A stretch of 32,616 nt of DNA, from contig JAJSAH010000019.1 in assembly GCA_024274875.1 (NCBI GenBank), positions 1 to 32,616 on the forward strand. Reading direction: 5' to 3'. This document shows positions 395 through 28,093 of the stretch, in pieces. The stretch's first letter is position 1. The number at the start of each line of letters is the position of its first letter. The notes beneath the pieces are model-generated. The model ran no database searches and was not told the origin of the DNA. It saw only the letters and a list, made by a program, of their open reading frames with translations. Made by a program: the position numbers and the translations under genes. Source of the stretch: an archaeon. GTDB taxonomy: Archaea > Micrarchaeota > Micrarchaeia > CAILAH01.

Positions 395-1579
395 ATGCGA
401 ACAAAAAACATAGATATCAGAACCCGTTCAGTGTTAAGAAAAGGAATATTCGAAAGAATATTTAAGAGAAGGAATGCAGATGCAGGGAGAGCATTAAGCA
501 CTTCTTTGTATGAGCTCATCGCAAAAAGCACATTTGAGGAAGAAAGCTTGAATGAGGTTATACGAATCATATTCAACACATTGCAAGGGGAATTTTCTGT
601 ATACTTGCACATGATTAATTACGAGGATGAATGCATCGACCCGCACGCAAGATACAGCATAGTTAATGAAGAGATGGTTATCAAATGCCCTGCATACATT
701 CCAACTTTATTAGGGAAACTGAACCCTTTTCAACCAAATCGAAACCTTGGCGCATACTGGAACTGCCAAAGAAACATTATGTATACATTCACGCTAATCC
801 CGCACGATTTCAATATTGTCAGTAATGACACTCATGGGCTTTCTCTTCATCAGCCAGTGGGGATTATAACACCAATGGTATTCCAAAAAAAATGCCTGGG
901 GATGCTTGAAATCAGCGGAACCAACATAGGTTTTAATGGGCATAGTGAAAAAGAGCCGTTCAACTTGCTTTTATATTCAGCAAGCGTTGCGCGGATCATC
1001 GCGATGCACTTAGAATTGCAAAGCGATCCTTTGACATCGCTCAAAACAAGAAGAAGGTATGATGTAGAGCTTCCTATGAAGATATTGCGCGCAATCAACT
1101 CGGGAAATCCGCTCTCGTTAATATACATAGATGCTGATCATTTTAAATCAGTGAATGACACATATGGGCATGGCGCGGGCGATTCATTGCTGAGATTCCT
1201 TGCAAAGCAGTTATCTAATTCAATAAGAATGAGCGAGTGCGAAGTGTTCAGGATAGGCGGTGAAGAATTTGCAATCATCGCTAATGTTGATAGAGATGAT
1301 GCAATTTGCATTGCCAATCGCATCTCAGAATCTGTGAAAAAAGGCATTAAGATACGCGATAATGATGGAAATGTTCATCTAATCAAGCCAACAGTAAGCA
1401 TAGGTATCGCTACGCTGGAGCACGAACCATTAAAAGATAATTTCAGCATACGCAGAATATGCGAAACGATGGCAAGATATGCAGATAATGCATTGTATGC
1501 TGCCAAGAATGAATACGGAAGAGATTGCATAGTGCTAAGAACGCGGGAGAAGGGTTCAATCATACTTAAAAAAGTGTGA
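395..1579 (+). CDS. GGDEF-domain protein (putative diguanylate cyclase) with an N-terminal GAF-like region
   Basis: DPLTSLKTRRRYD linker, DADHFKSVNDTYGHGAGDSLL, RIGGEEF A-site, VSIGIA. Confidence 0.93.
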   Translation: MRTKNIDIRTRSVLRKGIFERIFKRRNADAGRALSTSLYELIAKSTFEEESLNEVIRIIFNTLQGEFSVYLHMINYEDECIDPHARYSIVNEEMVIKCPAYIPTLLGKLNPFQPNRNLGAYWNCQRNIMYTFTLIPHDFNIVSNDTHGLSLHQPVGIITPMVFQKKCLGMLEISGTNIGFNGHSEKEPFNLLLYSASVARIIAMHLELQSDPLTSLKTRRRYDVELPMKILRAINSGNPLSLIYIDADHFKSVNDTYGHGAGDSLLRFLAKQLSNSIRMSECEVFRIGGEEFAIIANVDRDDAICIANRISESVKKGIKIRDNDGNVHLIKPTVSIGIATLEHEPLKDNFSIRRICETMARYADNALYAAKNEYGRDCIVLRTREKGSIILKKV

Positions 1580-3373: not shown

Positions 3374-3442
3374 TCATGGAAGGACTTTATTATTCTCAAT
3401 CTTGTCTTTCACATATTCTCCAACGAAAGTGAGCTTTTTGCC
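3374..3442 (-). other. In-frame continuation of Top6A after the TAG: GKKLTFVGEYVKDKIENNKVLP*
   Basis: Manual minus-strand translation in the top6A frame from 3442 to TGA at 3374-3376; resembles the usual Top6A C-terminal tail. Confidence 0.75.
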
Positions 3443-4495
3443 CTACAACGCATCCTGCTCAAGTTTTTTCTTTGTTTTGAGCACAATATCGAGCTCCTCA
3501 ACCCATTCCTTATGCCTGGAAATCCAAGGGTATGATTTCATTTCTTCTGCGCGCTTAATATCAACATCCTTAGCTTTTATAGTAAGCTTATTCAAGAAAT
3601 CATACTCGTTAATGTCAGACATCGTAACCCCAATAAACCTTGCTTCTGGAGTTGCCAAATGCTTCGTAAGGTATGCAAGATTCATCGAACCTGTCTTAAT
3701 CGCCCAATATATATACCACCCCCATGCATCGCAATCAGTGAACACATATACAGGCAATTTCATATCAGCAAGCTTGCGTATCAACCTTCTCGTTCCCCTA
3801 GAGGCCTGGCCCTTAGGAGTAATCAGTATGCAGTTGTTCTTCTTCCAGAACTTATCTTCATTCAGCCTCTGCCACAGCGCATCCTTCTCTACCACCAGCA
3901 CATAATCGGCATTCACATCAACAAATTCCATATCATTATCAACATCGCTCGGGATCATCCAACCGCTCCTTCCTTGTTTGCTTGCATCTATGGTATTCTC
4001 TTCGCCTCCGAACCTATCCTTAATTATCATGTTTCCGGCAACCACTCCTTTTCGGTCCGTGCTTAAGTTGAAATCCTCGCGCTTTAGGTCAAGCGACGCT
4101 TCAAGGTCTTCAATAAGAGGGTTCGATTCTGACTGCTCGCTGAACAACTCTTCATCAAGATCCTCGCCTAAACTGAACTTGAGCTGGTAGAACAAACCTC
4201 TGATGCTCGTGTGCAACCCCTCTTCAAGAAATTTCTTCAGTTTGGCTGCTATTGCAATCGTCTGCATAAATTTCTTGGCCTGCGAGACATGAACGAATGT
4301 TCTTTTCTCCTTCTTGTCTCCAAGAACAAGAGTACCAGTATCTTCACTGAATGACACATTTGACCTGCTGCGCACAGGAGCATAAAATGAAGGAGATGTA
4401 TCCGAGTTAATTTCCTGAAGAGTCTCCCTGCCAAGGTTAACCAATCTTTCATAAGCAACATTATCTACTTTCCTGCCTTTCACCATAAACATCAC
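3443..4495 (-). CDS. top6A: DNA topoisomerase VI subunit A, ending at an in-frame TAG
   Basis: TSIRGLFYQ catalytic Tyr motif, VYVFTDCDAWGWYIYWAIKTGSMNLAYLTKHLATPEARFIG Toprim region. Confidence 0.95.
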   Translation of the reverse strand: MMFMVKGRKVDNVAYERLVNLGRETLQEINSDTSPSFYAPVRSRSNVSFSEDTGTLVLGDKKEKRTFVHVSQAKKFMQTIAIAAKLKKFLEEGLHTSIRGLFYQLKFSLGEDLDEELFSEQSESNPLIEDLEASLDLKREDFNLSTDRKGVVAGNMIIKDRFGGEENTIDASKQGRSGWMIPSDVDNDMEFVDVNADYVLVVEKDALWQRLNEDKFWKKNNCILITPKGQASRGTRRLIRKLADMKLPVYVFTDCDAWGWYIYWAIKTGSMNLAYLTKHLATPEARFIGVTMSDINEYDFLNKLTIKAKDVDIKRAEEMKSYPWISRHKEWVEELDIVLKTKKKLEQDAL

Positions 4496-10096: not shown

Positions 10097-10615
10097 TCAC
10101 AACCTTGCCCCATGCTCAGAAAGGTATGACATTATGGGATTGGAAAGGCCTCCTATGGCGAACATCATGACATTCAACCCAAACGCATGCTCGCGTGCAT
10201 TAACATTTGCACCGTTGTTCACAAGCAATTCCACCACTTTAAAATGCCTCCATAAAGAAGATACCATAAGAGATGTAACACCGCCAATGCTTTGCGCATT
10301 AACATCTGCACCTTTATCTATCAATAATTTTGCGATATCATAATACCCATTGGCCGATGCAAGAATTAGCGCGGTCCAACTAAACTCATTCCTCGCATTT
10401 GGGCTGGCGCCTAAATCAATGATGGCGCATGCATTGTTTAAGTCATTGCTCTTCACATAAGCAAACAAAGCTGCGTCAAGCCATCTTTTGCGCGCGCACT
10501 CTTTAGATGGATAGAGTATGTTCTCAATTTTCGGTTTCAAATATGATTTCCTACCGTTCAACCTCTGAACATGATGTTTAGAATTCATAATCTTAAACAC
10601 ATCCATGCTGCTCAC
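10097..10615 (-). CDS. Ankyrin-repeat protein
   Basis: Repeats such as GWTALILASANGYYDIAKLLIDKGADVNAQ / TSLMVSSLWRHFKVVELLVNNGANVNAR. GTG 10615 or ATG 10606 start. Confidence 0.9.
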   Translation of the reverse strand: MSSMDVFKIMNSKHHVQRLNGRKSYLKPKIENILYPSKECARKRWLDAALFAYVKSNDLNNACAIIDLGASPNARNEFSWTALILASANGYYDIAKLLIDKGADVNAQSIGGVTSLMVSSLWRHFKVVELLVNNGANVNAREHAFGLNVMMFAIGGLSNPIMSYLSEHGARL

Positions 10616-10688: not shown

Positions 10689-10952
10689 TCATGCAATCCT
10701 GAACCCATCTAAATTCATAGGTGCCCTCGCTTCAGTCTTAAATATGTATCCAAGGGTTTTTGCCATGTTCTCGCATTTTCCAGGCTCACCATGCATGGTG
10801 AATACATTTCTAAACTGCTGGTTCATATCCCTTACAAACGCAATCAACTGCCTCCTGTCTGAGTGGCCGGAGAATCCTTCAATTGTTTTATTCTCCATAT
10901 TTATTTTCAGGCTCTTAATCCTGCCATCATTATCAGTAATCTGGATCTCCTT
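10689..10952 (-). CDS. C-terminal portion of aCPSF1/FttA, in frame after an internal TAA
   Basis: [36 protein letters not shown]...[31 protein letters not shown]; carries beta-CASP GHSD and HGE motifs. Confidence 0.9.
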   Translation of the reverse strand, partial: [87 protein letters not shown]

Positions 10953-12593
10953 TTAACCGTTCTGTATCCTGCGGCCGATTGAAGTGGATGACTGATAACC
11001 TACAAAGAACAATGAATTCTTAGGCTCTTCAGCAAGCAGTTTCAAGTACTCGTTCGAAGGTCCTCCGGTAAGCATCCCTGAAGGTGCCAATATTATGCAC
11101 GGTTCGCCTTCAACAATATCCTTGCGGTTCTTTTTTACGGGTTCAAATATTGGGGATTCAAACGGAGATTCATCGCTAAGTATTCTGCGTTGAATAGTTC
11201 TCTTCAAATACTGCGGATATGCTGTATGGAATGCAGTAGTCTCTAAAATCATGCCGTCCATGTACACCTTGTAAGGAAACTCATCCTCTTTCCCGCGCAC
11301 AAATTTCTCAAGCGTTAGCATAACTTCCTGCGACCTCCCAACAGAAAATACTGGTATGAGAACCTTGCCGCCCCTCTTTAGCGTCTCCATGCACGAATCC
11401 CATAACTTTTGATCGCGTTCGTAGGAGCGGGGCATTATATCAGTTTTGCCGCCGTATGTGCTCTCTATGAACAGCGTCTCAACGCGCGGGAACATCGTGT
11501 CCGCAGGATCAAATAAAACAGAAGGCGTGTATCTAACATCTCCAGTATATACTATATTGTGCTTCCCCTCGCCTATGTGCAAATGAACGGTTGCGCTTCC
11601 AAGAATATGGCCGGCATTTCTGAATGTAAGTTTTATGTTCGGAGTTATATCAGTAACTTCTCCATAATTGCGCGTTATTGTGTGCGCAACAGCCTTGCGC
11701 ACATCTGAATCAGAGTATAACGGCTCTTTACCCATCATGTTTGCAATTTTAATATTATCGAACTGCAATAAGGTCATTATATCGCGCGTTGGTGGCGTGC
11801 AAAACACAGGACCATCATATCCGAGCTTGAATAAATAAGGAAGGAAACCACTGTGATCAGTATGCGCATGGCTGATTATGACTGCATCTATATCTTCTAT
11901 TGCCAAACCAATGCTGCTCAAATAAGGATATGCGCGGTTGGAATCAACAGTATCTATATTCATGCCCATATCTATGAGCACATGATCCTTGTTTGTCTGG
12001 ACAAGAAGGCAGCTTCTGCCTATTTCTTTAAAAGCACCTAACGCAACTGCTTTAACCCAATCAACTCCGCTCTCCTCTCTCTTAACATTAATCTTTTTTC
12101 CAAAACTCTTCAGAAATTTCTTACGTTCGCTAGCGAGCCCTGCCTCAGAACCGCGAATGCCTTTTATTATATTAGAGGGAATTGTGGGAGAGCGCTGAAC
12201 GCGCGGAGCCCATTTGGTCTCTATGATTATCTGTTTTAAGTTTGAACCGCTTTTCCCTATGACTAAACCTGGCTTTAGCGCGTTTATAACAACAACGCCA
12301 AACTCGGGTATGAATGTAATGCCGTTCTCCTCAACACCAGCATCCTCGGGAATGATTTTTCGTATGAATTCAAGAGCCTGTTCAGGAGGCATGCGTACAG
12401 ATGCATCGCACCTTACAAGGATTTTTTTCCGCAAACCTCTGGAAAGCGTTTTTATGTGCTCCTCGCTCTCGTAAAACGGAGCAGGGTTTGTAAGGTATAT
12501 TGCCACATCGGGACCTTCAAACTCAACTGAAGCCAATCCACACTCATGAGGCAGCAATTCCTCCGCCTTCTTTTTCATCTCTGCCTTATCCAT
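10953..12593 (-). CDS. aCPSF1/FttA beta-CASP ribonuclease (KH-MBL-beta-CASP), N-terminal part ending at an in-frame TAA
   Basis: [73 protein letters not shown], ends SIGRRIQNG*. Confidence 0.96.
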   Translation of the reverse strand: [546 protein letters not shown]

Positions 12594-12667: not shown

Positions 12668-13294
12668 TTATTTCTTAAGAAGAGTCTCTATCTCTTCCTT
12701 TGAATACTTCTTGTATCCTTTTGAGGTTATGCTGACTAAATTTATTCCATCGCCTGTGGCAGCATCTCGCTTCATAGCTATGTTTATCGCTCTCGCGGCT
12801 ATGGGAAGCAACTGCTCAACATTCATGCCTTCTTTATAATTGCTTTCCAAAACTCCGTACGCAACAGGAGAGCCGCTGCCTGTGGAAGTGTATTTCTCAG
12901 TTGTTACTCCGCCAATCGGATCCAAGTTGAATATTGATGGACCGTTCTCATCAACACCTGCCACAACCAACTGCACAAGAAAAGGGAAGAATTTCTGCTG
13001 GAATAATATATTAGATAAAAGCGTTGCCGTAGATTCAACCGACATATGCTTTCCATTCTGAAGATTGTACAACCTCAATTCAGCCTGCATCCACCTTACT
13101 AATGCCTGAGCATCACCCACGCTGCCAGCAATCGTCATGCCAATCCTGTCATCTAACTTATGAATTTTCTCAGCTTCTTTGTTAGCTATAAAATAGCCCA
13201 TGCTAGCGCGCATGTCCGCAGCAAGCACCACTCCATCCTTGCCAACTAATCCCACTGTTGTAGTACCTTTCTTCGGGTCAAAATTCTGTTCCAT
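12668..13294 (-). CDS. psmB: Proteasome beta subunit
   Basis: GTTTVGLVGKDGVVLAADMRASMG, GSVGDAQALVRW, YTSTGSGSPVAYGVLE. Confidence 0.97.
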   Translation of the reverse strand: MEQNFDPKKGTTTVGLVGKDGVVLAADMRASMGYFIANKEAEKIHKLDDRIGMTIAGSVGDAQALVRWMQAELRLYNLQNGKHMSVESTATLLSNILFQQKFFPFLVQLVVAGVDENGPSIFNLDPIGGVTTEKYTSTGSGSPVAYGVLESNYKEGMNVEQLLPIAARAINIAMKRDAATGDGINLVSITSKGYKKYSKEEIETLLKK

Positions 13295-26845: not shown

Positions 26846-28093
26846 ATGAACGGAAAAGTTGCGATTGCTGTTATATTTGTTGCTCTGCTATTGGGCTGCA
26901 TTGGCCCGAAAGAGATTGGTCCGGAAAAGATTGGCCCGGAAGAGAAGTTGGATAGTTTGGGCCATACCCTTGATGGCATGAATGCAATTAAAGAGAGCAA
27001 TAACTTGTTCGCATTCAAAATGTATATGGAAATGAGGGATTACGAAAATTTGTTCTTTTCTCCGTTCAGCATGTACAGCGCGTTTGCTGTGTTGTATGAG
27101 GGCGCAAACGGAAGCTCCGAACAACAGCTCCGAGATGCATTTGGATATCTGGATAAAGAGAAGATGAGACCTAACTATGCAGAAATTCAAAACATTCTGA
27201 ACGATAACTCACAGCAATATGTGTTGAGGAATGCAAATTCAATATGGATTCAAGAAGAATTCGATGTGAGAAAGGGATATTTAGAGATTTTAAGAACGCG
27301 ATACGGAGCGCACTCGAAAAATGTTGATTTCATCAACAATCCAGAAGAAGCAAAAAGCCAAATAAACGGTTGGATAGAGCAAAAAACGAATAGCAGGATA
27401 AAAAACTTGATTGCAGATATTCCAATAAATACGCGGTCAATCATAGCGAATGCAATATATTTTAAGGGTAAATGGGAACACAAATTTGACAAGTATAGGA
27501 CTAAGGATGACTATTTTATATTGGAAGACGGAACAAAAAAACAAATTAAAATGATGCAGTTAGGGAATGAATACAAAGGAGAAACGCTAAGATATGCCTA
27601 TGTAAACGGCGTTGAGGTGTTAGAACTTCCATATAATGGAAACATATCTATGTATGTGATTCTGCCCAATAAAACGCTGAATGAATTTGAGCAGGAATTC
27701 ACTTATGAAAAGTATGTTGAGTATAAGAAAAGAATGGGATATGAGTATGTGTATGTTGAACTGCCTAAATTCGAAGTTAGAACTGATGCTTACGAAATAA
27801 CAGAACCCATAAAACGCTTGGGCGCAGTTGATGTGTTCGACCCAAATAGAGCTGATTTATCTGGGATGACTGAAAAAAGAGGTTTGTATGTATCGAGCGT
27901 TGTTCATAAGGCATACATCAAAGTTGATGAGGAGGGCACAGAAGCTGCTGCTGCAACAGGCATTGTTGCTGGACTTACTTCACTTCCCGCGCAATTAATT
28001 ATCATTCATTTCAGGGCAGATCATCCGTTCATATACATAATTGAGCACAAAGATGCAGGGATTTTATTCATGGGAAAGCTTGAGAACCCTTAA
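26846..28093 (+). CDS. Serpin-family lipoprotein
   Basis: LLLGCIG lipobox; NLFFSPFSMYSAFAVLYEGANGSSEQQL; ANAIYFKGKWEHKF; hinge VDEEGTEAAAATGIVAG; ADHPFIYIIEHKDAGILFMGKL. Confidence 0.95.
   Translation: MNGKVAIAVIFVALLLGCIGPKEIGPEKIGPEEKLDSLGHTLDGMNAIKESNNLFAFKMYMEMRDYENLFFSPFSMYSAFAVLYEGANGSSEQQLRDAFGYLDKEKMRPNYAEIQNILNDNSQQYVLRNANSIWIQEEFDVRKGYLEILRTRYGAHSKNVDFINNPEEAKSQINGWIEQKTNSRIKNLIADIPINTRSIIANAIYFKGKWEHKFDKYRTKDDYFILEDGTKKQIKMMQLGNEYKGETLRYAYVNGVEVLELPYNGNISMYVILPNKTLNEFEQEFTYEKYVEYKKRMGYEYVYVELPKFEVRTDAYEITEPIKRLGAVDVFDPNRADLSGMTEKRGLYVSSVVHKAYIKVDEEGTEAAAATGIVAGLTSLPAQLIIIHFRADHPFIYIIEHKDAGILFMGKLENP
26903..26947 (+). repeat. 3 x 15-bp in-frame repeat encoding GP(K/E)(E/K)IGPEK-type linker
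   Basis: ggcccgaaagagatt / ggtccggaaaagatt / ggcccggaagagaag. Confidence 0.85.

Follow-up and report, generated by a model that had tools for sequence, protein, structure and literature searches.

M. maripaludis cannot dispense with the archaeal termination factor aCPSF1, or FttA (PMC7515710), which has also been suggested as a marker for phylogeny (PMC8653824). In the structure of FttA from T. kodakarensis, the beta-CASP domain (bCASP) extends over residues 433–557 and part b of the metallo-beta-lactamase domain (MBLb) over residues 576–639, with H591 coordinating Zn (PMC11616081). Here we describe an interrupted gene for this factor in the window, the 32,616-nucleotide stretch of DNA analyzed as a whole, which is the complete contig C19 of the draft assembly GCA_024274875.1 (G000), an uncultured Micrarchaeota genome of 833,113 bases in 24 contigs that is about 90% complete. 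Four members of the same family (G001, G002, G003 and G004) were used for comparison, all of them uncultured Micrarchaeota and one named Candidatus Micrarchaeum sp.; the contig scan for relatives gave these four and otherwise only distant genomes, none of the same species, and all comparisons were made at the level of the family or the phylum.

On the minus strand, a single frame leads from the ATG at 12593 to the TGA at 10689–10691 without insertion or deletion. In translation it is broken only by one TAA at 10953–10955, as the initial annotation had described. Pfam detected the domains KH_TffA (residues 4–67), Lactamase_B (193–256, metallo-beta-lactamase part a) and Beta-Casp (422–543) in the product of the upstream open frame (10953–12593, minus strand, 546 aa), and RMMBL, the MBL part b (PF07521, 55.4 bits), in that of the downstream frame (10689–10952, minus strand, 87 aa plus TGA). 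Together, the two pieces cover intact orthologues of 634 aa over their whole length and without gaps, the sole missing residue being that of column 547, and the downstream piece is 77% identical to the G001 orthologue, which passes the cut-off of the aCPSF1 family TIGR03675 (780 versus 580 bits). With the component domains of the KH-MBL-bCASP-RMMBL architecture thus matched, the frame 12593–10689 is predicted to encode aCPSF1/FttA and is no chance ORF. The locus is a normal aCPSF1 locus, since psmB, the gene of the proteasome beta subunit (12668–13294, minus strand), adjoins it upstream as it does in all four family relatives. No second intact aCPSF1 was present among the contigs of the assembly, where shorter paralogues only were found, and aCPSF1 is single copy.

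The TAA separates the beta-CASP domain from the MBL segment at the C-terminus and aligns to residue 561 of the T. kodakarensis protein, in the bCASP/MBLb linker. Both the GHSD motif (10857–10868, minus strand; beta-CASP motif B, the His of which is equivalent to T. kodakarensis H591, PMC11616081) and the MHGE motif (10785–10796, minus strand; motif C) are encoded after it, in agreement with the initial annotation. As assembled, the catalytic motifs are therefore not all in one chain, whereas they are in the relatives examined. The expectation that the upstream product would be inactive on its own also stands, because the part it lacks carries the Zn-ligating His.

Directly downstream of aCPSF1, an ankyrin-repeat protein is encoded at 10097–10615 (minus strand); in the four family relatives, the sequence retrieved around aCPSF1 contains no match to it. 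Elsewhere in the window, a GGDEF-domain protein (diguanylate cyclase, PF00990) is encoded in this archaeon at 395–1579 (plus strand), and a serpin with a strong match (PF00079, 357 bits) and an N-terminus like that of a lipoprotein at 26846–28093 (plus strand) in this Micrarchaeota genome.

Compared in related genomes, as had been proposed, the position of the TAA is occupied by sense codons at both family and phylum level, an outcome that the initial annotation had named as refuting its reading. It is GAG (Glu) in G001, G003 and G004 and GAC (Asp) in G002, and many different residues are found across the class. The statement that homologues usually have Trp here did not hold: Methanothermobacter (2YCB), outside this group, has Trp, whereas T. 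kodakarensis has Leu and Pyrococcus Ile. With it falls the argument that a change from TGG to TAA would take two substitutions and would speak against an error: the family codons are GAG and GAC, and from GAA to TAA a single change is enough. Apart from places where the query ends, no stop was found in the aCPSF1 orthologue matches of 60 genomes of the class. A search of 303 genomes of the phylum with a degenerate motif followed by TAA or TAG produced 25 hits, a number similar to that of the control with the reversed pattern, and among the sites fetched only the present one lay in aCPSF1. At invariant aCPSF1 columns, taken as a test for errors, this genome shows 2 private changes, which is within the range of 0 to 12 in the others and so tells nothing about errors.

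In two other Micrarchaeota, aCPSF1 carries an intein (locus L207, 101–3802, G023:C57; locus L208, 256–3888, G051:C11). It comprises about 570 residues with a LAGLIDADG endonuclease (PF14890 and PF14528) and interrupts the Zn-binding motif, HAHLDH^C...HN^SGF. No description of this intein was found among the titles returned by a literature search.

Selection on the part behind the TAA was followed by pairwise pN/pS, a comparison in which synonymous sites are near saturation. Downstream of the TAA, the values were 0.165–0.257 for this genome versus its relatives and 0.089–0.286 among the relatives, and for the conserved core they were 0.10–0.20 and 0.10–0.21, respectively. A decay of the downstream part was considered and rejected, pN/pS being as in the relatives. 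These values indicate that the 3' part has been under purifying selection until recently, which excludes an old loss and is compatible with a recent one.

A screen of all contigs of the assembly (833,113 bases) against the ORFs from three relatives of the family, with 650, 286 and 239 kb of sequence, covered about 541 genes and 127,572 aligned amino acids. It revealed six in-frame stops, each of them private, in otherwise collinear genes. Besides the TAA in aCPSF1 (C19:10955), two further TAA codons were located in the genes of RpoB'' (C17:48548; Glu in G001) and SepF (C17:74379; Glu in two relatives). A TAG interrupts the gene of topoisomerase VI subunit A (TopoVI-A) at window positions 3443–3445 (minus strand, C19:3445), where two relatives have Gln (CAG); read through this codon, the frame covers 3374–4495 (minus strand) with 22 conserved residues after the TAG and its natural stop at 3374–3376. 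The remaining two are TGA codons, one in PriS (C13:8390; Leu in two relatives) and one in a P-loop protein (C12:2473; Gly in a relative). Five of the six interrupted genes were confirmed as family members by NCBIfam or Pfam, the sixth having a sub-threshold P-loop match only and no curated family assignment. The TAA in RpoB'' was read again in a separately retrieved locus of the same assembly.

The reverse comparisons yielded no confirmed private stop in G001 (128,167 aa), G004 or G002. The candidates left over in the relatives looked like antisense frames, 5' extensions or gene ends, a judgement that came from a filter in some cases and from inspection in others; antisense shadow ORFs, at first the source of numerous false stops, were later filtered, and what remained was judged by eye. 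Six versus none corresponds to a Fisher P of 0.015 against G001 alone and of 0.003 against all three relatives, so that private nonsense codons are in excess over the relatives, as is expected when an assembly contains base errors. The implied substitution rate is 3.3 × 10−4 per base (95% range 1.2–7.3 × 10−4). Four of the six stops fit a G to T change on the coding strand, for which 21% would be expected (P = 0.022 versus uniform substitution), a share based on six events only and on inferred ancestral codons. Such a G to T pattern is known for oxidized or depurinated DNA.

We therefore attribute the TAA most likely, and with good confidence, to an erroneous base in the consensus sequence of this metagenome-assembled genome, because at least five other genes, mostly housekeeping, carry private stops while the close relatives have none. 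At least six protein genes are interrupted, with all three types of stop represented among them and the frame otherwise intact on both sides. A living cell in which RpoB'', PriS, TopoVI-A and FttA are all broken is implausible: the first three are core genes, and M. maripaludis has been found to require FttA (PMC7515710). The true gene, adjoining psmB, would then encode a normal aCPSF1/FttA of 634 residues without interruption, and the errors would be scattered substitutions at about 3 per 10,000 bases, as is expected when coverage is low or the DNA is damaged. Missense errors that arose in the same way are inseparable from natural divergence. The rate itself counts against an error, as it is high for a consensus built from short reads. 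Nor may low coverage by itself account for the stops, since G004, with a coverage of about 5x according to its contig titles, shows none in the 286 kb examined. Our guess is that the errors may derive from damage, as an oxidized or depurinated template would suit the share of G to T changes. The TAA is present in the sequence, but a biological split of the gene is very probably not real. Among the three options given in the initial annotation, it is the damaged or misassembled allele that fits the stops found across the genome, and neither the two-subunit enzyme nor readthrough does so.

Second after a base error ranks a real, recent nonsense allele, carried by part of the population or by dying cells and picked by the assembler, which would leave a truncated, inactive FttA in those cells. 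The single step from GAA, the restriction of the TAA to this genome and a downstream part that has not yet decayed all agree with such an allele. We nevertheless consider it unlikely, as five other genes, mostly of core function, have private stops as well. A single lineage could not survive with the whole set, although each stop might be confined to a subpopulation of its own. In addition, aCPSF1 is single copy here and essential where this has been tested (PMC7515710).

A translational bypass, in which stop codons are read through at a useful frequency in this lineage, so that many genes can tolerate nonsense changes, appears still less probable. It would account for the constraint that persists downstream of the aCPSF1 stop, and conserved in-frame stops under purifying selection have been argued to represent readthrough in bacteria (PMC7918605). 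That argument, however, needs orthologous stops common to several species, whereas every stop found here is private; for aCPSF1, a stop at this position was seen in this genome only, among 303. Three different stop codons moreover replace Glu, Gln, Leu and Gly, and all three act as normal terminators, with conserved genes ended by TAA in 141 cases, by TGA in 110 and by TAG in 54. The release factor aRF1 is an intact frame of 408 aa, and the tRNA scan of the assembly, which returned an incomplete set, showed no credible suppressor tRNA with the anticodon UUA. One tta tRNA candidate (C17:79571–79662) appeared at a relaxed threshold only, overlapped an ORF of 139 codons, had mispaired stems and was rejected. 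The most far-reaching reading, namely that the lineage either tolerates nonsense codons in essential genes such as RpoB'' and FttA through efficient general readthrough or has split FttA alone into two separately translated subunits at the bCASP/MBLb linker, seems highly improbable to us.

In a natural two-subunit FttA, the TAA would end an N-terminal subunit (KH-MBLa-bCASP), and a restart at the ATT (10938–10940, minus strand) or at the ATG (10896–10898, minus strand) would give a small MBLb subunit of about 70 to 85 residues that completes the active site. The break would be well placed, as the site (residue 561) lies in the linker between the end of bCASP at 557 and the start of MBLb at 576 in T. 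kodakarensis (PMC11616081), and Shine-Dalgarno-like sites precede 46% of the starts in this genome versus 13% of internal Met codons. AAGGAG (10947–10952, minus strand), 6 nucleotides before the ATT, is Shine-Dalgarno-like, and all three elements are present where the initial annotation had placed them. As a sign of re-initiation, however, AAGGAG proved unspecific, since it encodes Lys-Glu and is found with identical bases in 6 of 28 relatives whose gene is intact. At the would-be start ATT, G001, G003 and G004 read GTG (Val) and G002 reads GTA, and the ATG is a coding Met in G002 and G004 as well and has no Shine-Dalgarno-like site before it. Neither a split in any relative nor a dedicated second start signal was found, and the stops of the other five genes would be left unexplained. 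A restart is conceivable given the Shine-Dalgarno-like sites of this genome, but the signals at the locus are unspecific and we hold a two-subunit enzyme to be the least probable of these readings. Reassignment of a stop codon is excluded for practical purposes, because TAA, TGA and TAG all end conserved genes and aRF1 is intact; no codon that has ceased to terminate, no suppressor tRNA in the incomplete set of the tRNA scan and no altered or lost release factor was found.

A real stop would mean that a termination factor which is essential and universal in archaea consists of two chains or relies on readthrough. Taken as an error, it means that this draft genome yields false pseudogenes in aCPSF1, RpoB'', PriS and TopoVI-A, and the private stops in RpoB'', SepF, PriS and the P-loop gene call for caution as to the base quality of the assembly. 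A family-wide screen for private stops offers a quick test of split-gene claims of this kind.

In comparison with known systems, the recoded stops of archaea, pyrrolysine TAG and selenocysteine TGA, have in common with the present case an in-frame stop in a functional gene; unlike them, the stops described here are mixed and the residues that they replace vary (Glu, Gln, Leu, Gly). For TAA, recoding is not known in archaea. The in-frame stops that have been read as readthrough in prokaryotes (PMC7918605) likewise lie inside an otherwise constrained frame, but they are common to orthologues of several species, whereas the TAA in aCPSF1 is private to one draft genome. Closest of all is aCPSF1/FttA itself (TIGR03675; PDB 9BCT, 3AF5, 2YCB and 2XR1), with which the locus shares the order KH-MBLa-bCASP-MBLb, the catalytic motifs, the adjoining psmB and a collinear alignment over 634 residues, and from which it differs in that one codon, 547, reads TAA.
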